From positions 124,001 to 188,000 of the forward strand of contig JAFGWL010000056.1 in NCBI GenBank assembly GCA_016937175.1: a stretch of DNA of 64,000 nt, written 5' to 3'. This document shows positions 47,969 through 62,740 of this stretch, piece by piece; position 1 is the stretch's first letter, and each line of letters opens with the position of its first letter. A program made the translations under genes and the position numbers. The notes under the pieces were generated by a model. That model saw only the letters and a program-made list of their open reading frames with translations. It ran no database searches and was not told where the DNA came from. The DNA comes from Candidatus Mcinerneyibacteriota bacterium. GTDB taxonomy: Bacteria; Macinerneyibacteriota; Macinerneyibacteria; Macinerneyibacteriales; DSCS01.

Positions 47969-49642
47969 CTATTCTTCGCTGCCGGCAGAGTCTCCCATGA
48001 ACAGATACCTTTTGATCTTCCGGGTGGAAGTCTTAGGAAACTCTTCATGGCGAAGAGTGATCTTTCTCACCCGTTTATACTGAGCCAGGTGATTGTTCAA
48101 TTTTTCAATCTCATGTTTCAAAAGTTCTTTCATCTTTTCGTCATCAAGCTCCTTGATATTGTGCTCACCGGCCCACTCCTCCATCTTTTCGTAGTTGGGG
48201 AAGATAATAGCTTCAGGATGGTCCTGACCCACCACGAGGACCTCTTCAATATAGGGGCACTGGATCAGGATCTCCTCTATCTCTTCGGGGTAGATGTTTT
48301 TACCCCCGCTGGAGACGATGACGTTTTTCAGGCGCCCTTTGATATTGATCCGTCCCTTCTTATCGATAAAACCATAATCCCCGGTATAAAACCATCCCTG
48401 TTTGAGGACTTCAGCTGTCTTACCGGGTTCTTTATAGTATCCTTTCATGATATTATCCCCCCGGACGACGATCTCTCCCACGCCGGTCTCATCGGGGTTG
48501 TAGATCCGCACTTTGACTCCTTCAAGAGGACGGCCCACCGAGTAGAAATCGATATCCCGGAAGTCTACGGCTGAAAGGACCGGAGAGGTCTCGGTCAGTC
48601 CATACCCCTGTATGATGGGGATCCCCAAAAGGAAGAAGAACTTATTGATATGGGGCGGAAGAGCGGCTCCCCCGGCGACGAAAAAATCGATATTCTGAAA
48701 CCCTGCCTTTTCAAGAAGGGGTTTGAAGATCCCCTTTGTCCCGTTAAGGCTCTTATCAAAGAGACGTCTGATCCTTGCTGCCAGGAAAAGGGTTTTCACA
48801 AGGGCCTTCCGTACCGGCGGGAGTTTGCTGATATTCGCCTGGATGGAGTTATACATCTTCTCAAAGACCAGGGGGACTCCCACCATCTTGGTGACCTTCG
48901 TCTCCGCCATAGCCTTGACGATGTCACGGTTCGCCAGAGAAGGCGAGAAGGTAATAAGCGACCCGCTGAAGATAGGGGTCAGAAATCCCGCTGTTCCCTC
49001 ATAAGCATGGTGGAGGGGCAGAATCGAAAGAAGATTGTCTTCGGGCTGGATCTGAAGCCGTTCCCGGATGGCCAGCAGGTTAGAGACAAGGTTTTTATGA
49101 GTGAGGATGACTCCTTTGGTCTTCCCGGTGGTTCCCGATGTATAGAGGAAGACAGCGGGATCTTCGGGGTCGATATCGGGGAGCGGAGGGATCTCCCGGG
49201 TCTTTTCAAAGAGTGAATAAAAACCGGTTTCCCCCATGGGGTTTAACTCGTAGAGATCTTTGAGGGCAGGCATCTCCTTTTTGGCCCCTGCGACATCTTC
49301 ATAGAATTTCCCTTCGGCAAAAATACCCCTCATATCTGAATCGTTGATGATATGGACGATCTCACGGATTCCCAAAAGGCGGTCGATGGGGACGGCGATA
49401 AAACCCTGAAGCATACAGGCAGCATAGACCATGGCCCATTCGGGAGTATTGTTCCCAAGTATCCCGACTTTTTCCCCCTTCTCATACCCCAGCCCTCTTA
49501 AAAAAGAGCCCAGCTTCAGGGCATAATCTAGATATTGTCCGTAGGTATAGGATTGATAGGCTCCGTCCCGAAAGATCTGAAGAGCTTTCCTGTTTTCAAA
49601 TGATTTCCCGTTTTGCAGAAAAAGATCCTGTAATGTCTTCAT
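47969..49642 (-). CDS. AMP-binding long-chain fatty acid--CoA ligase
   Basis: 557 residues of the ANL superfamily. The AMP signature is YTSGTTGKTKGVILTHKN (about 170-187). The adenylate loop is GYGLTETSPV and the C-domain hinge is YTGDYGFIDKKGRI with the catalytic lysine region TRKIKRYL. The FadD/FACL-like length and N-terminus suggest an acyl-CoA or acyl-ACP substrate. It overlaps the STAS gene by 4 bases, an unusual partner, so acyl activation and partner-switching may be linked. Confidence 0.9.
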   Translation of the reverse strand: MKTLQDLFLQNGKSFENRKALQIFRDGAYQSYTYGQYLDYALKLGSFLRGLGYEKGEKVGILGNNTPEWAMVYAACMLQGFIAVPIDRLLGIREIVHIINDSDMRGIFAEGKFYEDVAGAKKEMPALKDLYELNPMGETGFYSLFEKTREIPPLPDIDPEDPAVFLYTSGTTGKTKGVILTHKNLVSNLLAIRERLQIQPEDNLLSILPLHHAYEGTAGFLTPIFSGSLITFSPSLANRDIVKAMAETKVTKMVGVPLVFEKMYNSIQANISKLPPVRKALVKTLFLAARIRRLFDKSLNGTKGIFKPLLEKAGFQNIDFFVAGGAALPPHINKFFFLLGIPIIQGYGLTETSPVLSAVDFRDIDFYSVGRPLEGVKVRIYNPDETGVGEIVVRGDNIMKGYYKEPGKTAEVLKQGWFYTGDYGFIDKKGRINIKGRLKNVIVSSGGKNIYPEEIEEILIQCPYIEEVLVVGQDHPEAIIFPNYEKMEEWAGEHNIKELDDEKMKELLKHEIEKLNNHLAQYKRVRKITLRHEEFPKTSTRKIKRYLFMGDSAGSEE

Positions 49643-49983
49643 ACGGCGACCTTTCTTTTGGCTTCCTCGACACTGCCAAAAATCTTGAATATCTTGTTGA
49701 ACCCGGCAAGACTCAAAATCTTTTCGATCTTATGAGAGGGAGCGGCCAAAGCCAGCTCTCCGCTGCTCTTATTCAAGACAGACCGTGCTGCCAGAAACGA
49801 TCCCATTCCGGCACTGTCCACATACTCTACTCCGTTCAGATCAAAAATGACAAAGATAAACCCCTTAGGTAAGAGAACATTCCTCACAAGCTCAATGACA
49901 GCGGGTTCATCATTGACGTTGATATTCCCTGAAAAGGAAACCACCGCTGTTTTACCAAGCTCCTCTGTCACCCTCCATTCCAT
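49639..49983 (-). CDS. STAS-domain anti-sigma factor antagonist, second module
   Basis: 114 residues. A single STAS domain with the phospho-acceptor region VEYVDSAGMGSFLAA (serine near residue 58). GAGGAGG precedes the ATG. The start overlaps the RsbW-like kinase by 32 bases. It should be phosphorylated by that kinase and dephosphorylated by the GAF-PP2C protein next door. It is distinct from the first antagonist at 2097-2441, so signalling lines are probably insulated. Confidence 0.9.
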   Translation of the reverse strand: MEWRVTEELGKTAVVSFSGNINVNDEPAVIELVRNVLLPKGFIFVIFDLNGVEYVDSAGMGSFLAARSVLNKSSGELALAAPSHKIEKILSLAGFNKIFKIFGSVEEAKRKVAV

Positions 49984-50401
49984 GACATCCTCCTCTGCAT
50001 GCTATTTTCATCTCCAGGACAGTCTGCCCGGGAGAGAAATGGTATTCGACGCTGTCCATCAGCCTTTTCATCAAAAAGATCCCTCGCCCTCCGGGAAGCG
50101 TGATGTTATCCGGATGAGTGGGATCAGCCAGGGTTTCCGGGCAAAACCCTTTCCCCAGGTCCTTTATGGTAATATGAAGAGCCTCTTCTGTCAAAAGAAG
50201 TTCAACATCGACATTTTTCTCAGGATCTTCACCGTTTCCGTGTTTTACCGCATTGACGACTCCTTCCACCACAGCCAGAAATATCTCATCGGGACATAGG
50301 CCGCTTTCTGCGGCGAAATCAGACATGAACTGCCTGTATAGAGCTTCGATACCCGGCAGAAATGAGGTCCGGCTGGGAAAACTGAAGTGGATGCGGACCA
50401 T
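49952..50401 (-). CDS. RsbW/SpoIIAB-like serine kinase, second module
   Basis: 149 residues. GHKL motifs are VVEGVVNAVKHGN (N box), KDLGKGF (G1) and GGRGIFLMKRLMD (G2). The C-terminal tail ends in a short cysteine-containing stretch (IACRGGCHGM). GGAGAG precedes the ATG, which lies one base from the phosphatase stop. Its target is not encoded nearby; with the ValRS-like and AMMECR1 genes upstream, a non-sigma target is possible. Confidence 0.88.
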   Translation of the reverse strand: MVRIHFSFPSRTSFLPGIEALYRQFMSDFAAESGLCPDEIFLAVVEGVVNAVKHGNGEDPEKNVDVELLLTEEALHITIKDLGKGFCPETLADPTHPDNITLPGGRGIFLMKRLMDSVEYHFSPGQTVLEMKIACRGGCHGMEGDRGAW

Positions 50402-50402
50402 A

Positions 50403-51647
50403 TCACTCTCTCCGGAAAAGCAGAAGAGTCATGTCGTCTGTCTGTTTTCCCCGGGCAAAATCGAAGGCCCTGTCGAAAAGATTCTGGCTGAACGCCTCAA
50501 GGCTCTCCCTCGGGCCCTTCTCCAGATCCTTCACAAAGGCCTTCTCCCCATAGAGGTTCTCTTCGCTGTCCATGGATTCAGTGATCCCGTCGGTGTAAAG
50601 GATCAGGGTCTCTTTCCGGTCGAGGGGAAGTGTATGAAGGCTGAAGTCATACTCTTCCAGGATACCCAGTGGAATGTCATTACTCTCAAGAAAACGGACA
50701 GAACCCTCCTCGGAAAGAAGAGCCGGATAATTATGGCCGGCATTGACGTATTCGATGGCATGTCTCTTTTTGTCCAGTTTACCTAAAACAAGAGTCACAA
50801 AGCGCTGAGCTTCCGTATCCCGGAAGATGGAACTGTTCAGCTGATTCACGATATCGGCGAGATTCATTTTAAATCGGACAGCCGAATGAAGATAGGCACG
50901 CAATGTGCTCATGACCAGGGCAGCAGGGGCCCCTTTCCCGGAGACATCTGCGATGACGAACAACACCTGGTCTTCTCCATAGGGAAGAACATCATAATAA
51001 TCGCCCCCGACACTCCGGCAGGCCCGGTACCGGGCCACATACTGATATCCCTCGATGGAGATATCATCGCGGGGAAGAAGCCTCTCCTGGATCTCTCCTG
51101 CGATCCTCAGGTCAGCTTCCATCCGTTCCTTTTCCAGAGTATCTTTATGCCACATGGCGTTTTTCAGATTTAAGGCAGCCAGATCTGCAAATGTCTGGAG
51201 GAGTTTCAAGTCCCGGGAATTAAAGGCTCCGCCGTCTTCCTTGTTCAGGACTTCTATCAGACCGATGACCTTACCGTTGATCCATACGGGAACACCGATG
51301 ATGGATTTAGTAACAAATTCGCTTTTTTTGTCCACCCCCTGAAAAAACCTCGGATCGGCCGAAACATCTTTGACCAGAAGCGGCTTTTCATTCTGAATGA
51401 TCCATCCGGCGATACCCTTGTCGGCGGGGAAGCGGATCTCTTTGATCTTCTCCCCTTTTTCTCCCGTGGCCACATCAAAATAGAGCTCATTTTTTTCTGT
51501 ATCCAGGAAGATCAAAGAACTGGCTTCCGCTTTAAAGACCACTTTAGCCTGTTCCATGATGACAGCTTTTGTCTTGTCAAAATCCAAAGAAGCATTGAGC
51601 ATTTTGACGACATCAAGGAGTTTTCTGTACCGGCTTTGTTCCGCCAT
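50403..51647 (-). CDS. GAF-PP2C (RsbU/SpoIIE-type) serine phosphatase
   Basis: 414 residues, cytoplasmic. A GAF domain (about 20-165) is followed by a PP2C phosphatase domain (about 200-410). The latter has VGGDYYDVL, FVIADVSGKGAPAAL, YVNAGHNYP and LILYTDGITE, covering the metal-binding aspartates. It dephosphorylates the STAS antagonist when its GAF domain binds a signal. A strong GGGAGGG lies before the ATG. The first 35 bases overlap the end of the ValRS-like gene, so it is translationally coupled to it. Confidence 0.92.
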   Translation of the reverse strand: MAEQSRYRKLLDVVKMLNASLDFDKTKAVIMEQAKVVFKAEASSLIFLDTEKNELYFDVATGEKGEKIKEIRFPADKGIAGWIIQNEKPLLVKDVSADPRFFQGVDKKSEFVTKSIIGVPVWINGKVIGLIEVLNKEDGGAFNSRDLKLLQTFADLAALNLKNAMWHKDTLEKERMEADLRIAGEIQERLLPRDDISIEGYQYVARYRACRSVGGDYYDVLPYGEDQVLFVIADVSGKGAPAALVMSTLRAYLHSAVRFKMNLADIVNQLNSSIFRDTEAQRFVTLVLGKLDKKRHAIEYVNAGHNYPALLSEEGSVRFLESNDIPLGILEEYDFSLHTLPLDRKETLILYTDGITESMDSEENLYGEKAFVKDLEKGPRESLEAFSQNLFDRAFDFARGKQTDDMTLLLFRRE

Positions 51648-53826
51648 CGCGTCCCTCCCTTTCCAATTGAGCTAACAGTTTAATATACCCTTTCATCTTC
51701 TCTTTGGCAACCAGAAGGGCTCTCAGGTTCTCCTCTTCCGCTTCGATGACCTGGGGGGAGGCTTTATTCAAAAATTCAAAATCAAACAGGCGGCTCCTTT
51801 TTTCGAGGATGCGTCTGTTTATCTCTTCCTTCTGCTGCTGCAACTCCTCCATCCGCAGACTCACTCTTGATTTATCATAGACCGGGATATAGAGGCTGAT
51901 CTTATCCAGCTTCATTTTCAAGCTTTTTTTGGGCATCTCCTTGGGAGTGATGTATTTGAGCTCTGTAAGACTTAAAAAACGGGTTATATAAAACATATTC
52001 CGGTTGAGGGTATCCTCCAGCCCGCCGCCGGGATTGGTTATCCATATCTCCAGGGGTTCATCGGGCCCGATATTCAATATTGACTTTCCGTCCATGACCG
52101 TATCGATAAGATCCAGGATAAAATGGTCCCGTTCGAGTTCTTCGCTGAAGTGATAGTCCTCCCTGTAGGCCGGGATCCTTCCGGATTCCGAGATATCAGG
52201 ATAAAAGGGAGCCAGACAGGTCTTAACAGCCCGGAAAACATAAAGAGAATTCCTGAAGACAGCGGGGTCCTCTTCTGCCTGAATCTTTTTGACAAAGGGA
52301 TAGACACGGTGATCCAGAAGGCCCATGAGAGCTTCCAGATGCCCCAGAAAACTAAACAGGTCGCCTACTTCAAGGGATCCGGTCGCTTTCAGGATAAAAT
52401 CTTCCAAGGCCGTGAGAAGCAATTTGTCGATATAAAAATCAGTCCTTATGTCCACTTCGTCCATGGCCCCTTTGATCCGTCTGGAAAAGAGCCTTTCCCA
52501 CCTGTTGAGAAATGAAAGAACCTTCCTGTCGCTGAGATGGATATCCCTGTGAAGAGCTCCATCAAGATAGGCCAGGGGAGATACTTCGGGGAAAGATTCC
52601 GGCAGGACTCCTTCTCCGGATCCCTCTCTGTATTCCAGCCCGATGACCTTCCGGTTGTCCCCCTTTTGCCGGGGGGCGAGGATCTTTTGAAAAAAGGACA
52701 ACCGGTCGGAGACGAAATCTTTTTCCTCCTCATGCAGGAGCAAAAACCTGACCGGTTGACGCCAGAGAAAGGGAAGGAGAAGATTTCGCATCCGGTCATT
52801 AAAGAGCGCCTCCTCCTTATGCGTAACTTTTGAACATGCCGGGCAGGACTTTTCATCATAAAAAAGTGTTTTACATTGCGGGCATATGCGGTATTCGATC
52901 CTGACCGGCCCCGGATGAGAGTCCGGCCAGCCTTTATGCGAAGTAAGGATCAGCGGCCCGCTTCTGGGCCGTTCAGAGGTCACTTGTTCTACTCCTTCCT
53001 CGGAGATAAAGAGATGCTCCGCCAGAAGGTTATCAGCCACTTCATTGCAATGACGGCAGCGGGGGACTTCTATCTCCTGATCCAGAGATTGGGACAAAGC
53101 CCCGTACATACTGAGGTCTCCCAAAAGCCTCTCGGGGTCATTCCTGTAAAGGGAAAGGAGACGTGTCCGGCTTTCAGATTCTTCATCCTCTTTGTCCTCT
53201 TTCTGAAGAGTAATAAATCTTGTATAGTACTCCGGGCGTGAGACATCCTCTACTTTCAGGATAGGGACATGATGCCCCAGGATAGGGACGATTCCTTTTT
53301 TGTCAGCATACTTTTCCATATTCCGGACGCCGATGGCTTTGACATTCAAAAGAGCCAGGGGATCTGTGACTGAAAAGGTCAGAGGGTCGGCAAGGGCGGT
53401 GACATTCATCCTCAATGAATAGACATGATGTCTTTCCCGGGTAATGCGGACCTCATACCCTTCCAGGACCCTTCCGCATCCGGGGCAGAAATACCCTTTG
53501 ATCAGGCCTTTACGGGGAAGCCGCCTCTTGAAGAGCTCTTTCATGAGGCGGTTTACGAAATCATGCCGGGTCTCTTTGTCAAGGGGAAGATGAAGCTCTT
53601 CGAAGCGGATGCCGAGAAGAGTATAAAGTTTTTTTTTCAATATTTCTTTCTGATTGTTTTTGCAGAGGATAAGATCATAATAGGCCGGCTTTTCCTCCCC
53701 GAGAGAAGCAAACGCCTTGTGGAGAAAATTTCCATAGACCAGGGGATAAAGGTCACGGGCCGTGAGCCGCCTGTGGGTGACAGGCGTGTAATAGATCATG
53801 CCTTCTTTTTTGCTCTTATCAGCCAT
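51613..53826 (-). CDS. catalytically degenerate valyl-tRNA synthetase paralogue
   Basis: 737 residues, recognisable along its length as a relative of ValRS. PVTHRRLTARDLY (about 15-27) stands where ValRS has P-N-V-T-G-x-L-H-I-G-H, so the HIGH motif is lost. YFCPGCGRVLEGYEV (112-126) matches the first zinc knuckle. The editing domain outline is visible at about 148-200 (FSVTDPLALL in place of the T-T-R-P-E-T motif). A second zinc pair set is C257/C260, C315/C318 and C328/C331. No KMSKS is seen between 380 and 440. The anticodon-domain region (about 430-600) and the C-terminal coiled coil (about 655-720, FLNKASPQVIEAEEENLRAL) remain. It should not activate valine. It may bind tRNA or sense charging and relay to the overlapping phosphatase. 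AAGGA precedes the ATG. Confidence 0.8.
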   Translation of the reverse strand: MADKSKKEGMIYYTPVTHRRLTARDLYPLVYGNFLHKAFASLGEEKPAYYDLILCKNNQKEILKKKLYTLLGIRFEELHLPLDKETRHDFVNRLMKELFKRRLPRKGLIKGYFCPGCGRVLEGYEVRITRERHHVYSLRMNVTALADPLTFSVTDPLALLNVKAIGVRNMEKYADKKGIVPILGHHVPILKVEDVSRPEYYTRFITLQKEDKEDEESESRTRLLSLYRNDPERLLGDLSMYGALSQSLDQEIEVPRCRHCNEVADNLLAEHLFISEEGVEQVTSERPRSGPLILTSHKGWPDSHPGPVRIEYRICPQCKTLFYDEKSCPACSKVTHKEEALFNDRMRNLLLPFLWRQPVRFLLLHEEEKDFVSDRLSFFQKILAPRQKGDNRKVIGLEYREGSGEGVLPESFPEVSPLAYLDGALHRDIHLSDRKVLSFLNRWERLFSRRIKGAMDEVDIRTDFYIDKLLLTALEDFILKATGSLEVGDLFSFLGHLEALMGLLDHRVYPFVKKIQAEEDPAVFRNSLYVFRAVKTCLAPFYPDISESGRIPAYREDYHFSEELERDHFILDLIDTVMDGKSILNIGPDEPLEIWITNPGGGLEDTLNRNMFYITRFLSLTELKYITPKEMPKKSLKMKLDKISLYIPVYDKSRVSLRMEELQQQKEEINRRILEKRSRLFDFEFLNKASPQVIEAEEENLRALLVAKEKMKGYIKLLAQLEREGRDGGTKPVQKTP

Positions 53827-54376
53827 CCCGATCCTTTTCAGAAAAGATCTCGGCTGTAAAGGAGTAGATCTCAGTCTCGGGCCAGGAAGCAGCCTCGGGG
53901 GGGAGCCCCGCCTTCCGGCAGGTATGTCCGATAAACTCCTCCCGCCCCCAATGATACTCGACGGCTACCTGGGGCAGAAGGAGCCCTGATCTTGACCCGT
54001 TTCTGACAACGAGCCCGTCCCGTCCGGTACGTATCCCGCTCAGGTCCGTGATACGCTTCAGTGGCGACAGAAGAGAGATTTCAATGGCAACATCGTCAAG
54101 TTCCTCACGCCTGAGAGGTTCAAAACGGGGGTCGTGAAAAGCGGCTTCACGGGCTAAATGGATAACGGCGTCTTTCAACGGCTCCACTCCGGTTATAAAG
54201 CCGATGCATCCCTTTAGCTCACCGCTGAGAGTCAGAGTGACGAAAAGGCCTCTCTTTTGACTAAAAAGAGGATCTTCCAGAGGTTCGATAAAGATTCCGG
54301 GATCGAAGACAGATGCAATGCTCTGCCTTGCTCGTCTAAGAAGGGCTTGTCTCTGACCGTCCTTCAGTGTCAGCAT
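53819..54376 (-). CDS. AMMECR1-domain protein
   Basis: 185 residues. The hallmark LKGCIGF is near residue 55, with the conserved AFHDPRF and EISLLSPLKRI following. The family belongs to the AmmeMemoRadiSam group, and its biochemical role is unknown. A Memo-family protein is encoded 7.5 kb away (61901-62740), but no radical SAM partner is in the window. GAGGGGGG lies before the ATG although the start is 41 bases inside the upstream gene. It overlaps the ValRS-like gene by 8 bases, so these two proteins are likely made together. Confidence 0.9.
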   Translation of the reverse strand: MLTLKDGQRQALLRRARQSIASVFDPGIFIEPLEDPLFSQKRGLFVTLTLSGELKGCIGFITGVEPLKDAVIHLAREAAFHDPRFEPLRREELDDVAIEISLLSPLKRITDLSGIRTGRDGLVVRNGSRSGLLLPQVAVEYHWGREEFIGHTCRKAGLPPEAASWPETEIYSFTAEIFSEKDRDG

Positions 54377-55337
54377 GCCCGGCCCCCCTCTTTGATTTCC
54401 GATGTATGAAAAAAACCACCAGGGCCCACAGGAAAAGAGCGATGATGACGAAATTCATGATAACGCCCAGGTAGAGGTATTTCTTTTTATAGTCAAACTG
54501 CCGCTCATGTTCTTTCTTGAAGGCTTCGTCGCCGAAGCGGCACATATATTTATGATCGGGAGCAAAGACATCAACGATGCCCTTGGCATTGTCACTCACG
54601 AAAAAATAACCGTTGTACGACGCAAGAGAGGCAGGAATATAATATTTAGACTGAGCAGTCAAAAGAACTTCCTCAACCGGGTCATAGACATAATACCTGG
54701 CCGAGAAAAAATCCTTATCCGCGTAGAGAAAATGAAGGGCTCCCCCGTCATCTACTCCCCGGATGACGGTCCCCTCTTCAGGCAAACGGTCGAAAACTCT
54801 CTCCTCCGCCCCGCCAAGCTGACGGATGATATTACGGCCTCTCTCCGAGTAATAGATACCGCCTCTCCACTGAAAGAGGGCATAGGGCCTGACAGGTGTC
54901 TTTTGAGTCTCCAGGAGAGCCCCTTCAGAATCCAATATCTCAATATACTTCTCTTTAGCGGATACGCCGTAGATCTTTTTGCCGATGGCCGTGACTGTCG
55001 TGTAACGTCCGGCGGAAAAACTCTTCTGCGGGTTGAACCAGGAGTCATAGACGATAAACCGGCCATTCTCTCTGCGATAGGTCACCGGCACTCCTTCCAG
55101 AAAGAAGAAGGCATCGGGCTTGCTGCGGAATTGAAATCCCATGGATTTCTCTCCGTTCAGTGTATACGCCTCGATGACACTTCCCTCAAGAAGATAGAGT
55201 TTATCTCCGTTGAACGCCAGGGCATCGATGCCGGGAGCTTTCAGGAAACGGTCTTTGGCGATAAAGTTGACGATAACGGCGAGGATGATAAGAGCGATGA
55301 TGAGTATAGCCTGGGTGTTAAGCCTCTTCTCATTCAT
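54336..55337 (-). CDS. membrane-anchored beta-propeller-like protein
   Basis: 333 residues from the ATG at 55337, which overlaps the upstream ORF by 8 bases. One membrane segment near the N-terminus (AILIIALIILAVIVNFIA) and one near the C-terminus (LGVIMNFVIIALFLWALVVF) flank a region of repeated four-strand units. These contain phrases such as IDALAFNGDKLYLLEG and GYFFVSDNAKGIVDVFAPD, typical of NHL or six-bladed propellers. The propeller probably lies in the periplasm. The tail is short and charged. No ligand or partner is known. Confidence 0.7.
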   Translation of the reverse strand: MNEKRLNTQAILIIALIILAVIVNFIAKDRFLKAPGIDALAFNGDKLYLLEGSVIEAYTLNGEKSMGFQFRSKPDAFFFLEGVPVTYRRENGRFIVYDSWFNPQKSFSAGRYTTVTAIGKKIYGVSAKEKYIEILDSEGALLETQKTPVRPYALFQWRGGIYYSERGRNIIRQLGGAEERVFDRLPEEGTVIRGVDDGGALHFLYADKDFFSARYYVYDPVEEVLLTAQSKYYIPASLASYNGYFFVSDNAKGIVDVFAPDHKYMCRFGDEAFKKEHERQFDYKKKYLYLGVIMNFVIIALFLWALVVFFIHRKSKRGAGHADTEGRSETSPS

Positions 55338-55665
55338 CCCCGACACCGAATACTTCTTTAAGAAAATCATTCATAAGGTCTTCACTGTTATCCGAAGGAA
55401 CGACCTGAGCCAATTCATCTTTTTCAGCATTTTTAATCGTGGACATCACCTCTTTGTGCTGTTCCACAAGCTTCTCCTCTATCTTCTTCTCGATCTTGTC
55501 CGGGTCTCCGTTAATGATCAACTTTTTTTTCTTGCTGCCGATGATGGCCCCGTTATCGAAGATCAGGGTGACGATGGTGCTGTTGGACGGCATAAATTCC
55601 GTCTGAACATGGACCTTTCGGTTTTTAAATTCGACATCGCTGTTTCTCCCCTGAATCATGCTCAT
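55330..55665 (-). CDS. conserved-looking small protein of unknown function
   Basis: 111 residues. The N-terminal half is beta-rich (VEFKNRKVHVQTEFMP, STIVTLIFDNGAII). The second half is a charged helix (INGDPDKIEKKIEEKLVEQHKEVM) with an acidic tail. It overlaps rimI by 4 bases and the propeller gene by 8, so it is well embedded in the operon. No family is recognised; the strand-helix form could be a small cytoplasmic adaptor. Confidence 0.7.
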   Translation of the reverse strand: MSMIQGRNSDVEFKNRKVHVQTEFMPSNSTIVTLIFDNGAIIGSKKKKLIINGDPDKIEKKIEEKLVEQHKEVMSTIKNAEKDELAQVVPSDNSEDLMNDFLKEVFGVGDE

Positions 55666-56147
55666 TCCTCCTTGGCATGTTGGATTATATCATTTTTGCA
55701 GCCCTTTTCAAGAGTTAGTTGCATCACTAGGGCATCCTCTCCGTTATCCGTATAGTAGTTCTTGCGCAGGCCTGCGGGGACAAATCCTCTTGAGCGGTAG
55801 AGAGCCTGAGCTGCCCGGTTGCCGAGGCGGACCTCCAGCCAGATGTTCCGTCCCCCCCGCTTTGCCATCTCTTCCAGAGCAGCATCCAGAAGTCCTCCTC
55901 CGACACCCTTTCTGCGGAAACTGGGATGAACGGCAAAATCCGCAATATGCCCTTCATCGAACAGGACCCAGCTCAGGCAAAACCCTGCCAGGATATCCCC
56001 TTTAAACGACCCGATAAAAAAGGCGTAATCCTTTTCGAATTCAGCAGCCATCATCTCTTTGGTCCATGGGAGAGTGAAAGAGGCGGATTCGATGGCTAAG
56101 ACTGCGGCCAGGTCACGTCTGTCAAGAAGACGGATTTTTCTTCTCAT
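55662..56147 (-). CDS. rimI: ribosomal-protein/N-terminal acetyltransferase RimI
   Basis: 161 residues from the ATG at 56147, chosen because the GNAT fold begins right after it (IRLLDRRDLAAVLAIE); ATGs at 56162 and 56222 are alternatives. The acetyl-CoA site is VHPSFRRKGVGGGLLDAAL, with WLEVRLGNRAAQALYRSRGF following, the RimI signature. It acetylates protein N-termini, classically S18. The tsaE-tsaB-rimI order is common in bacteria. Confidence 0.92.
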   Translation of the reverse strand: MRRKIRLLDRRDLAAVLAIESASFTLPWTKEMMAAEFEKDYAFFIGSFKGDILAGFCLSWVLFDEGHIADFAVHPSFRRKGVGGGLLDAALEEMAKRGGRNIWLEVRLGNRAAQALYRSRGFVPAGLRKNYYTDNGEDALVMQLTLEKGCKNDIIQHAKEE

Positions 56148-56826: not shown

Positions 56827-57249
56827 TCACCTTTCAATCGTGATCTCACGAGTCGTTTCATCGACCAGTTTAATAATGACCATGGCTTTATCTGTCCCCG
56901 GAGGGATCTCCGCCTTTTCGGCCCACTCGATAATGGATACAACCCCCTCTTCGAGATGCTCATCGAAACCCAGTTGAAAGAGCTCCTCAGAATCTTCGAT
57001 CCGGTAGAGGTCGAAGTGGTTCACCGCTCCCCGGGAAGAGGGATAGATGTTGAGAAGCGTAAAAGTGGGAGACCGGACTTCTTTTTCCGGGATTCCGTAA
57101 AAACGTGCCATTCCCCTGGCAAAGACGCTCTTCCCAGCTCCCAAATCCCCATACAGGAGGACAACGGCACCCCGGGCCAGTTCACCTGCAAGCTTTTCCC
57201 CCAGGGACAGGGTATCTTCAGGAGAGCCGGATAAGAAGACTTCTTTCAT
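56827..57249 (-). CDS. tsaE: tRNA threonylcarbamoyladenosine synthesis ATPase TsaE
   Basis: 140 residues. The P-loop is YGDLGAGKSVFARG (about 34-47). SPTFTLLN and FDLYRIEDSEEL are family motifs, and VVSIIEWAEKAE carries the conserved E-W. TsaE is an ATPase that resets the TsaBD complex during t6A formation. It overlaps the upstream propeller gene by 4 bases. Confidence 0.95.
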   Translation of the reverse strand: MKEVFLSGSPEDTLSLGEKLAGELARGAVVLLYGDLGAGKSVFARGMARFYGIPEKEVRSPTFTLLNIYPSSRGAVNHFDLYRIEDSEELFQLGFDEHLEEGVVSIIEWAEKAEIPPGTDKAMVIIKLVDETTREITIER

Positions 57250-58685
57250 GGGATAAGATTCATTCCTTTTGATGTGACAGCCAGGACATAACCGTTATAG
57301 GCAAACAGCTTCTCTGTTCGGGAAGAGCACAGCCCGTCTTCTACTGTCAGGACTTTAAACCGTTCAGTTTCCAGGTCGATAATATAGAGGCCTGTCTCTG
57401 TGGCGGCATAAAGCTTGCCTTCCCTTACGAGCATGTCAGAGACCCCTTCCCGCAGGGATTTGACGACCCCCGATTCGTGAGTATCGATGTCGTACCACAT
57501 GATCCCCATATTCCCGCCCACATAGAGCCGGGTGCCGGCCCGGGCCATGGTATTGAGGAAATCACTGTGTAAAGAAGAGGCTGTCAGCCTTTGAAGGACC
57601 GTTCCGTCTTTTGCGGCCAGGATCAGGCGGTCTCTGTGCAGAAGGATCAGAGTCCCTTCCGTCACATCGAATTGGTCGACATTGAAAAAATCTATTCCTC
57701 GGATCTCTCTGACCTTACGGGGTTGACGGACATTGAAGGAATTGATCCCGTATTTTGTCAGGAGATAAAGCTCTTCTCCCTCTGCCCGAAGGGAGATAAT
57801 ATTGTTATCCAGAAGGCCGGCATCCATCTTTACGGCTGAGCGGAAGGAAGTGCCGGCATAGACCCCGACTCCGTTGCTTCTTGTGGCCAACCAGAGACGC
57901 CCGGCAGCCCGGACAGCATCATTCAGGTTATCGTCCAGTTCAGGGACTCGGTCAAAAGAGAAAGCTCCATTTTTCAAATGGTTGATAAAAGTCCCCACAA
58001 ACCAGTAACCGCCCTCTTCATCAGGCAGCACTGCTTTCAGGCCGGAGCCAAAGAGAGCTCCGTTCTCTTTTTTGACTACGGGAGAGGAGGATGAGAAGGC
58101 TGCAAGATAACCTTCTCGGGTGATGAGGACACCGTCCCCCCCCGGAAGTCCGGCATAGTCGATGACTTCCAGAGGATTTCCCGTATCGGGGTCAAGAGGC
58201 GGGAAGTCGGGTGCTTTACGATGTATGGGATGAACAGGTACCTGCAGTCCCCGGACCAGTTCGAACCGGGTCAAAAGCCATGTATAGTCACCGCCCTTCG
58301 CCCTCACAGAGATCCGCCGGTTGTCATATCCCCACTCCAGGACAGGGCCTACGGACTTCCCGATCTTCTCCCAGGAGTCATCAGCCAGGCGCCTGTAGAT
58401 ACCCCGGTCGGTGAAGGCCAGGACCTCACCCAGCTCTTCTGCAGCCGCTATCATATAGATATGGTGTCTTTCCAAAAGGTCTCCCGGATTCCCCGAATAC
58501 TGAAAAGAACCTTCAGCTCCCCGATAGATAATAAGGCCTTTGTCGGTCCCGCAATAGACGTTAAAACTGTCAGAGGCCACATCGGTAGCCTTCTCATAAG
58601 AGATGAAAGAGAGGGCTTCCCGGGCTGCTGATGTCAGAGAAGCCGACAAGAACAGAAGGAGGAAAACCAACCATCTTCGTATCAT
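57246..58685 (-). CDS. exported two-component-regulator-type beta-propeller protein
   Basis: 479 residues. A signal peptide (VFLLLFLSASLTSAA) is followed by about ten propeller-like units with recurrent phrases such as GLIIYRGAEGSF, LWLATRSNGVGVY and KLYAATETGLYIIDLE. They resemble the sensor propellers of hybrid two-component systems (W-x-A-T/G-T-x-x-G-L-x-x-Y/F), here without a membrane helix or kinase domain. It is likely periplasmic. Overlaps mntP by one base and tsaE by four. Confidence 0.75.
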   Translation of the reverse strand: MIRRWLVFLLLFLSASLTSAAREALSFISYEKATDVASDSFNVYCGTDKGLIIYRGAEGSFQYSGNPGDLLERHHIYMIAAAEELGEVLAFTDRGIYRRLADDSWEKIGKSVGPVLEWGYDNRRISVRAKGGDYTWLLTRFELVRGLQVPVHPIHRKAPDFPPLDPDTGNPLEVIDYAGLPGGDGVLITREGYLAAFSSSSPVVKKENGALFGSGLKAVLPDEEGGYWFVGTFINHLKNGAFSFDRVPELDDNLNDAVRAAGRLWLATRSNGVGVYAGTSFRSAVKMDAGLLDNNIISLRAEGEELYLLTKYGINSFNVRQPRKVREIRGIDFFNVDQFDVTEGTLILLHRDRLILAAKDGTVLQRLTASSLHSDFLNTMARAGTRLYVGGNMGIMWYDIDTHESGVVKSLREGVSDMLVREGKLYAATETGLYIIDLETERFKVLTVEDGLCSSRTEKLFAYNGYVLAVTSKGMNLIP

Positions 58686-61104: not shown

Positions 61105-61195
61105 GTTATTTCATCACATTGCGGCCGTAAAAGGAGCAGGAGTTGCCGTTTTTGCAACAAAGTCAGGATTCATGAGTATACACAAGAGAGCGCCC

Positions 61196-61912
61196 ATGAT
61201 TGAAAAAGAAGCCTTGATCGTCTCGTCACAAAGACACCTGGCCTCACGCCTTCAGACAGAGCTGGCCCGTATCCCCGGAATATCTGTCCGCCCCCGGATC
61301 TATGAAGAGGGGCGGCTCTCCTTCAACCTCCGCCGGCGCAGCCCCGACCTTATCTTCATGTCCCTTAAAAACGAGCCTTCTCTCTGGGTCGACCTCTTCC
61401 TCCATAGGCCCCCATTTTCGCAGGTCATCGCAATCACGCCCGACCCTGCCCTGGCTCCCCGGGCTTTCCTTTATAACTGTGCCGATGTCCTGACATCCCC
61501 CTTCCGCGTTCAGGACCTGCGCAGGGCTGTCGCCAGGGCCCTGACACGGCGTTTTCTTTGGCTCCGAAGACAGGAGAGGCACTTCTCCCCCCTGGCAGCC
61601 CGTAAAAAAGATGTGATCCGCTTTTTCAACCCTGAAGAAATCCTCTTTTTTAAAGCAGAAGATAAAGTCGTCTTTCTGTATACAGACAAAGAGCGCTATT
61701 TCTCACGTTTCAGCCTGAGCCAGCTGGAAGCTCGCCTAAACCCCCTCCAATTCTGTCGTGTCCGGCGTAATGTGATCGTAGCGCTTCATGCGATCCGCGA
61801 AGTGGAAATCAAAGGCTCACGCGGGCTTTTCCTCTCTCTCAGAGGAAGCGGGATGAAGATCCGCGCCGGACGGAGATATATCCCTTATCTTAAAGAAAAG
61901 CTACTCCTTTAA
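61196..61912 (+). CDS. LytTR-domain response-regulator-like transcription factor
   Basis: 238 residues from the ATG at 61196 (AAGAGAG upstream); an ATG at 61172 lacks a ribosome site. The N-terminal 115 residues have the alternation of a receiver (EALIVSSQRHLASRLQTEL, PDLIFMSLKN, VLTSPFRVQDLRRAV). However, the phospho-acceptor aspartate position is not clear and the lysine is replaced, so it looks like a pseudo-receiver. The C-terminal LytTR DNA-binding domain (about 135-238) has ILFFKAEDKVVFLYTDKERYFSRFSL, CRVRRNVIVAL and GRRYIPYLKEKL. LytTR proteins bind paired 9-base direct repeats. No kinase is adjacent. The stop overlaps the convergent memo gene by 12 bases. Confidence 0.85.
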   Translation: MIEKEALIVSSQRHLASRLQTELARIPGISVRPRIYEEGRLSFNLRRRSPDLIFMSLKNEPSLWVDLFLHRPPFSQVIAITPDPALAPRAFLYNCADVLTSPFRVQDLRRAVARALTRRFLWLRRQERHFSPLAARKKDVIRFFNPEEILFFKAEDKVVFLYTDKERYFSRFSLSQLEARLNPLQFCRVRRNVIVALHAIREVEIKGSRGLFLSLRGSGMKIRAGRRYIPYLKEKLLL

Positions 61913-62740
61913 TCCCCAGGATCCGTATGTCACAAAAGAGTGAAGCCCCCCTGCGGGCATTTTGTCGTAGCTGGTCGTATATTCGAGAAGCTGGATGACA
62001 CCTTGCCGGAAAAGCCCGCAGATCAGGGCCACACCTCCAGGGCCGCAGGCGGACTGATGCTCCAGGGCATATGGAATGATCTCCTTCCATTCTCCCTTGC
62101 TCACCTTTTTAATGAACTCAGGGTCTTTTTGCCGGGTCACATATTCATATCCCGCAGCTCCTGTCCCCAGGGAAGAGTCTCCGTAACGGAACCCGTAGTG
62201 AGTCAAATCGGTACTGGCCACAAAGATCACTTCCGGATGATCCTCTTTTAGTTTTTCAAGGATATTGACATAATCCGTAAGGCTTTTCTGGATCCCCGGA
62301 GGAACTGAGACGGGAATGATCCGGCTCCGGGGATAGAGGTACTTTAAAAAAGGAAGCTGGACCTCGATGGAATGTTCCCCTTCATGGGCCCGGGCTGAAT
62401 GGAGAAAGAGCGATTCATCGAAATAGTCTCTGATAAGCCCATGGGCAACGGGCATATCTCCCAAAGGAGTCTCCCAGGCACCTTCCGGAAAGACAGCAGG
62501 ACGCTCCACTCCGTAGGTATGGACGGCCCCCAGGAGGAGGAAGACGGCATCGGGGCAGGCATTCAAAGCTGCCAAGGCTCTGAGAGCGATTCCTCCTGAG
62601 AAGGCCCAGCCTGCATGGGGAACGATGCCCCCCCGGTATTCCCTCAGCCCTGTCTCTGACAGCTCGCATTTGATAAAAGCTTCGATCTCAGCGGCCCGGG
62701 CAGGATAAAACTGTCCGGACACGACAGCATTTCGTCTCAT
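61901..62740 (-). CDS. Memo-family protein (AmmeMemoRadiSam group)
   Basis: 279 residues. Residues matching the Memo metal-like site are in IVPHAGWAFSGG (near 40), LLGAVHTYG, STDLTHYGF and HQSACGPGGV, the last with the conserved cysteine. In bacteria the family travels with AMMECR1 and a radical SAM enzyme. Here AMMECR1 is 7.5 kb away and no radical SAM partner is present. It is 8 bases after the SNF2 helicase gene on the minus strand, so they are likely co-transcribed. Chemistry of the bacterial family is unproven. Confidence 0.92.
   Translation of the reverse strand: MRRNAVVSGQFYPARAAEIEAFIKCELSETGLREYRGGIVPHAGWAFSGGIALRALAALNACPDAVFLLLGAVHTYGVERPAVFPEGAWETPLGDMPVAHGLIRDYFDESLFLHSARAHEGEHSIEVQLPFLKYLYPRSRIIPVSVPPGIQKSLTDYVNILEKLKEDHPEVIFVASTDLTHYGFRYGDSSLGTGAAGYEYVTRQKDPEFIKKVSKGEWKEIIPYALEHQSACGPGGVALICGLFRQGVIQLLEYTTSYDKMPAGGLHSFVTYGSWGLKE

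Follow-up and report, generated by a model that had tools for sequence, protein, structure and literature searches.

The window analyzed here, a 64,000-nucleotide stretch of a Candidatus Mcinerneyibacteriota contig, encodes a valyl-tRNA synthetase (ValRS) relative whose gene has stayed intact while its catalytic sites have gone. The open reading frame at 51613-53826 (reverse strand, as are all features below unless stated) encodes 737 aa. From its alignments, this pseudo-ValRS is a descendant of bacterial-type ValRS; judged by its sequence, it is catalytically dead; and the pattern of change among its orthologues shows that it has been retained under constraint.

Searched as a single sequence against NCBIfam, pseudo-ValRS matched PRK05729 (E 6e-14) and TIGR00422 (E 6e-10), mainly through its last 150 residues and far under the curated ValRS cut-offs (51 bits against 704, and 38 against 612). 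Its sole Pfam match, to Val_tRNA-synt_C (the ValRS tRNA-binding arm), was weak and sub-threshold, and PDB sequence searches with the single sequence and with the family profile returned only zinc-ribbon noise and no ValRS. When the three-member family was compared with 18 bacterial ValRSs in hhalign, residues 76-725 aligned with ValRS residues 151-891 in one co-linear alignment (probability 99.9, E 4.1e-31). Reversed and column-shuffled decoy profiles reached a probability of about 13% or less, and profiles of archaeal-type ValRS, IleRS, LeuRS, and MetRS were likewise not significant against the family (about 13% or less). A first-pass annotation, made from the letters alone, had described the protein as a complete, near full-length ValRS relative. 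The profile match bears out the extent of homology, but "complete" is too strong because the Rossmann fold is eroded and the editing site has gone as well. In a tree, pseudo-ValRS clusters with the bacterial ValRSs (100/100) at the end of a very long branch, and the data do not discriminate between a nested and a sister position (p-AU 0.40). The PxYREDY motif, shared with clostridial ValRS, may hint at a clostridial origin within the bacterial enzymes.

The order of ValRS parts is preserved. As the annotation had read from zinc knuckles, an editing-domain outline, an anticodon region, and a coiled coil, the alignment runs in sequence through four CxxC pairs, a CP1/editing-type domain, the C-terminal tRNA-binding domains, and the coiled-coil arm; the pairs at residues 114, 257, 315, and 328 correspond, with similar spacing, to ValRS 180, 345, 418, and 434. 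Four segments are significant in hhalign when taken alone. These are the CP1/editing-type domain with the first zinc-knuckle half, C114 and C117 (residues 106-250, 53077-53511; E 1e-8 for 105-250); the stretch with zinc knuckles C257/C260, C315/C318, and C328/C331, spaced as in ValRS (residues 250-345, 52792-53079; E 1e-5); the C-terminal junction domain that includes PxYREDY (residues 546-650, 51877-52191; E 1e-10 for 545-650); and the coiled-coil tRNA-binding arm (residues 651-737, 51613-51876; E 6e-11 for 640-737), with its FDFLNKASP motif, which reads FEFLNKASP in the window protein. The anticodon-binding helical bundle (residues 431-545, 52192-52536) consists of predicted helices with pLDDT 55-90. 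Within it, the alignment places RTDFYI, an invariant family signature (residues 461-466, 52429-52446), at the DKWILSRL region of ValRS.

Each half of the aminoacylation fold has been cut down, relative to ValRS, to the point of being unrecognizable. The remnant of the first half (residues 1-105, 53512-53826; pLDDT mostly below 50) lacks HIGH, and that of the second half (residues 346-430, 52537-52791; pLDDT about 30) lacks KMSKS; segments 1-110 and 345-460, taken alone, had no ValRS similarity detectable by hhalign. Motifs resembling HIGH or KMSKS are absent from all three family members. The double loss first read from the window protein is thus clade-wide across the genomes of the phylum examined (3 of 3). 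The reported replacement of HIGH by TARD stands in part: HIGH is absent, and the aligned position reads TARD, TTGS, or NENI across the members, but the alignment has no statistical support there. The Rossmann fold is both eroded and mutated: of 74 conserved columns in the N-half, 32 are deleted. The VTGxDIxFFW stretch is deleted or unrecognizable, and the SRQxWWGHRIP segment of the 250-345 region is missing as well. In the editing domain, the pocket motif TTRPET reads TDPLAL and the GTG..TPAHDxND stretch has been deleted. Synthetase paralogues with altered chemistry are known from natural-product and amino-acid metabolism (PMC9437257), and an AMP-forming acyl-CoA ligase, encoded in the same gene cluster, could partner a protein that activates an amino acid or other acid through a rebuilt active site. 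With both nucleotide-binding-fold halves shortened and unrecognizable, and HIGH and KMSKS missing from every member, we regard such an activity as highly improbable.

What has been kept is unevenly distributed. With ValRS-conserved positions defined by conservation of 85% or more across 36 bacterial ValRSs, all three members retain 7 of the 40 that fall in the C-terminal third and 10 of the 212 that fall in the catalytic and CP1 regions (Fisher p 0.009). Only 4 of 28 strongly conserved positions of the anticodon bundle survive in every member, making specificity for tRNA-Val doubtful, and the net charge of the C-terminal domains is near 0, with no basic excess. Most ValRS-conserved residues are lost, and new invariant patches (RTDFYI and PILGxxxP) have appeared, as might be expected if only the fold were in use, for protein-protein contacts with no tRNA role, for example in an allosteric subunit like HisZ for HisG. 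We consider this unlikely, as the parts best conserved relative to ValRS are the C-terminal tRNA-binding domains.

An AlphaFold model built from the three-member alignment alone was poor (pLDDT 41) and was set aside as a basis for comparison. With bacterial ValRSs added to the alignment, the model was of moderate quality (mean pLDDT 63): the CP1-like domain, helical bundle, C-terminal domain, and coiled coil were predicted at pLDDT of about 70-90, and residues 1-88 and 343-430 poorly. As the annotation's ValRS assignment would predict, the best Foldseek match of this second model was the T. thermophilus ValRS-tRNAVal complex (1gax, E 2.5e-20), a partly circular result, as are the other structural matches to ValRS, since the alignment used for folding included ValRS sequences. 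VIA-align matched 219 residues (within 431-652) to the C-terminal domain of P. aeruginosa ValRS (4xkz, Z 19.3) and the CP1-type domain to the ValRS editing domain (1wk9, Z 10.5).

Intact orthologues are present in all three Mcinerneyibacteriota-type genomes examined. The two outside the window are 56% and about 27% identical to the window protein; they come from DSCS01000057 (a hot-spring-type MAG record labelled Bacillota) and VSIX01000058 (Candidatus Mcinerneyibacterium aminivorans). Patterns taken from the single protein matched nothing in genome contigs; those derived from the alignment recovered the two orthologues together with ordinary clostridial ValRSs that share YREDY. Overlapping samples of 386, 389, and 385 genomes contained no full-length family member outside the phylum. 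Pseudo-ValRS is among the fastest-evolving proteins of its gene cluster, and a fast rate compared with the neighbors is what a functionless relic, a pseudogene in progress, would show. That reading is barely credible here: down to 27% identity there is no frameshift or stop, the three proteins have the same length and eight invariant cysteines, and differences among the genes are biased to the third codon position (0.35/0.25/0.59).

Aminoacylation with valine is served by another enzyme. In each of the three genomes, the only full ValRS is of archaeal type (1038-1055 bits against PRK13208, whose cut-off is 738); it carries GH and KISKS motifs and lacks the coiled coil. No bacterial-type valS scores above cut-off in any of them. 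In the genome of the window, the separate canonical valS that an inactive paralogue presupposes is thus present, as an 811-aa enzyme with HIGH and KISKS intact that ends without a coiled coil. Of 241 bacterial genomes sampled, 21 have an archaeal-type ValRS; they belong to many families and include the three of this phylum. Cross-domain replacement of valS has therefore probably occurred repeatedly. In the other 18 bacteria, searches with the family profile and with the bacterial ValRS model detected no C-terminal relic, and the generalization that archaeal ValRS replacement always leaves one was rejected.

The simplest history, though not a proven one, is displacement. In the ancestor of the phylum, an archaeal-type ValRS would have taken over aminoacylation and the old bacterial ValRS would have stayed as a pseudoenzyme, losing its aminoacylation and editing sites and keeping the zinc-knuckle scaffold, the anticodon-bundle and C-terminal domains, and the coiled-coil arm that in ValRS cradle the tRNA. 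The archaeal-type working valS in all three genomes suggests how an essential enzyme could become available for a new function. That the working enzyme lacks a coiled coil and pseudo-ValRS has one, with both together in 3/3 genomes, could alternatively point to a trans-acting accessory subunit that holds tRNA-Val and passes it to the archaeal-type ValRS. This is distinctly unlikely, given that the 18 other sampled bacteria with archaeal-type ValRS do without such a partner, that the two genes do not share a contig in any of the three genomes, and that tRNA-contacting residues are poorly preserved. Archaea are likewise not known to have such a partner.

The genomic setting may point to a different role. 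The gene overlaps by 8 nt that of an AMMECR1/AmmeMemoRadiSam protein A (53819-54376), its upstream neighbor in 3/3 genomes, and its end is overlapped by 35 nt by the start of a gene for a GAF and SpoIIE/PP2C phosphatase resembling RsbU (50403-51647); the latter overlap is 35 and 20 nt in the other two genomes. Coupled translation is likely on account of these overlaps. Next come an RsbW-like anti-sigma/serine kinase (49952-50401) and an RsbV-like STAS anti-sigma-factor antagonist (49639-49983) with a DSAGMG phospho-site motif. The retained phosphorylation motif of the STAS protein (DSAGMG/DSSGLG) and the DVSGKG and DDMT motifs of the phosphatase make the partner switch look functional, as far as motifs can tell. 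The gene order shared by the three genomes is MntP, a propeller protein, TsaE, TsaB, RimI, a RomY-domain protein, a membrane propeller-like protein, AMMECR1, pseudo-ValRS, the GAF-PP2C phosphatase, the RsbW-like protein, STAS, the acyl-CoA ligase, and Mfd; from AMMECR1 to Mfd, starts and stops overlap and the order is identical. Because the whole 14-gene neighborhood is conserved, TsaE/TsaB/RimI and Mfd included, adjacency to RsbU is not specific evidence. A regulatory role gains plausibility, but no proof, from the overlap with the RsbU-type phosphatase operon.

We tentatively propose, with less than even confidence, that pseudo-ValRS is a tRNA-binding regulator that feeds the partner switch. 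Its ligand would be a tRNA (charged or uncharged, and possibly other than tRNA-Val) or a component of the translation machinery that resembles tRNA, and the probably co-translated GAF-PP2C phosphatase would be the route by which it adjusts the RsbU-RsbW-RsbV switch; the tRNA binding, the contact with the phosphatase, and the direction of the signal are all putative. A more ambitious version, in which the displaced ValRS would be a phylum-wide sensor of tRNA charging that feeds a partner-switching phosphatase independently of RelA/ppGpp, T-boxes, and Gcn2, is rather doubtful. The same cluster also accommodates a role with no signal transduction, as a tRNA-presenting scaffold in the maturation or quality control of tRNA or ribosomes together with TsaB/TsaE (t6A37), RimI, and AMMECR1, whose genes share this conserved, partly overlapping cluster in 3/3 genomes. 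The tsaE-tsaB-rimI cluster is, however, widespread in bacteria that have no pseudo-ValRS gene, tRNA-Val is no usual t6A substrate, and the pseudo-ValRS gene overlaps those for AMMECR1 and RsbU rather than the tsa genes, so that a maturation scaffold is improbable.

Relative to bacterial ValRS (PRK05729/TIGR00422; 1gax), pseudo-ValRS shares the domain order, the four CxxC pairs, the CP1-type domain, the bundle, the C-terminal junction, and the coiled coil, but lacks HIGH, KMSKS, most of the Rossmann fold, and the editing site. Synthetase pseudoenzymes and duplicates already known, namely HisZ, LeuRS-I, and SLIMP (PMC9437257), are the right class for it. HisZ is a regulatory HisRS paralogue, a synthetase-derived pseudoenzyme without adenylation activity (PMC9437257, PMC7373986). 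In pseudo-ValRS, likewise a synthetase-derived pseudoenzyme, the catalytic core is instead the eroded part. HisZ derives from a class II synthetase, HisRS, and what it has retained, as an allosteric subunit, is chiefly the fold of the catalytic core. LeuRS-I of Sulfolobaceae is a duplicated class Ia synthetase that does not aminoacylate and has a disrupted CP1, yet makes leucyl-adenylate and binds tRNA-Leu (PMC9437257); pseudo-ValRS is also synthetase-derived with a disrupted CP1 but is of ValRS origin and lacks the catalytic signatures. SLIMP, the SerRS-like insect mitochondrial protein (PMC9437257), is similarly a lineage-restricted, repurposed synthetase paralogue, although class, origin, and context differ. 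A partial literature search found no ValRS-derived pseudoenzyme, and the synthetase duplication review PMC9437257 makes no mention of ValRS; within that literature, a pseudoenzyme derived from ValRS, nearly full length, with both active sites gone and the outer tRNA-binding frame kept, appears to be new. The neighboring genes resemble the RsbU-RsbW-RsbV system of B. subtilis in encoding a PP2C phosphatase, a kinase/anti-sigma protein, and a STAS antagonist, but here a ValRS-like protein together with a GAF domain would take the place of RsbT, the upstream input in the B. subtilis general stress response. If pseudo-ValRS does sense tRNA and act on the adjacent phosphatase, it would represent a new link from translation status to stress signaling.

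Several further observations concern the surrounding genes. The best promoter-like site of the region (55684-55711: TTGAAA, 16 nt, TATAAT, with a preceding TG; 11/12) lies upstream of the RomY-domain gene, the first in the run of overlapping genes; the overall count of such sites is not above that in shuffles. The RomY N-terminal domain protein itself (55330-55665, 111 aa) matches NF053858 above cut-off (E 1e-15) and is the best conserved of the cluster between two congeners (89%). In Myxococcus, RomY regulates the polarity of MglA. A propeller-like protein of 479 aa (57246-58685), in place in 3/3 genomes, has weak similarity to PorZ (E 1e-9). Memo (AmmeMemoRadiSam B; 61901-62740) is encoded about 7.5 kb upstream of AMMECR1 on the same strand, and pseudo-ValRS thus adjoins part of the uncharacterized AmmeMemoRadiSam system, the radical SAM partner of which is on another contig. 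Adjoining Memo, on the opposite (forward) strand, is a gene read from its sequence as a divergent LytTR-like response regulator (61172-61912).
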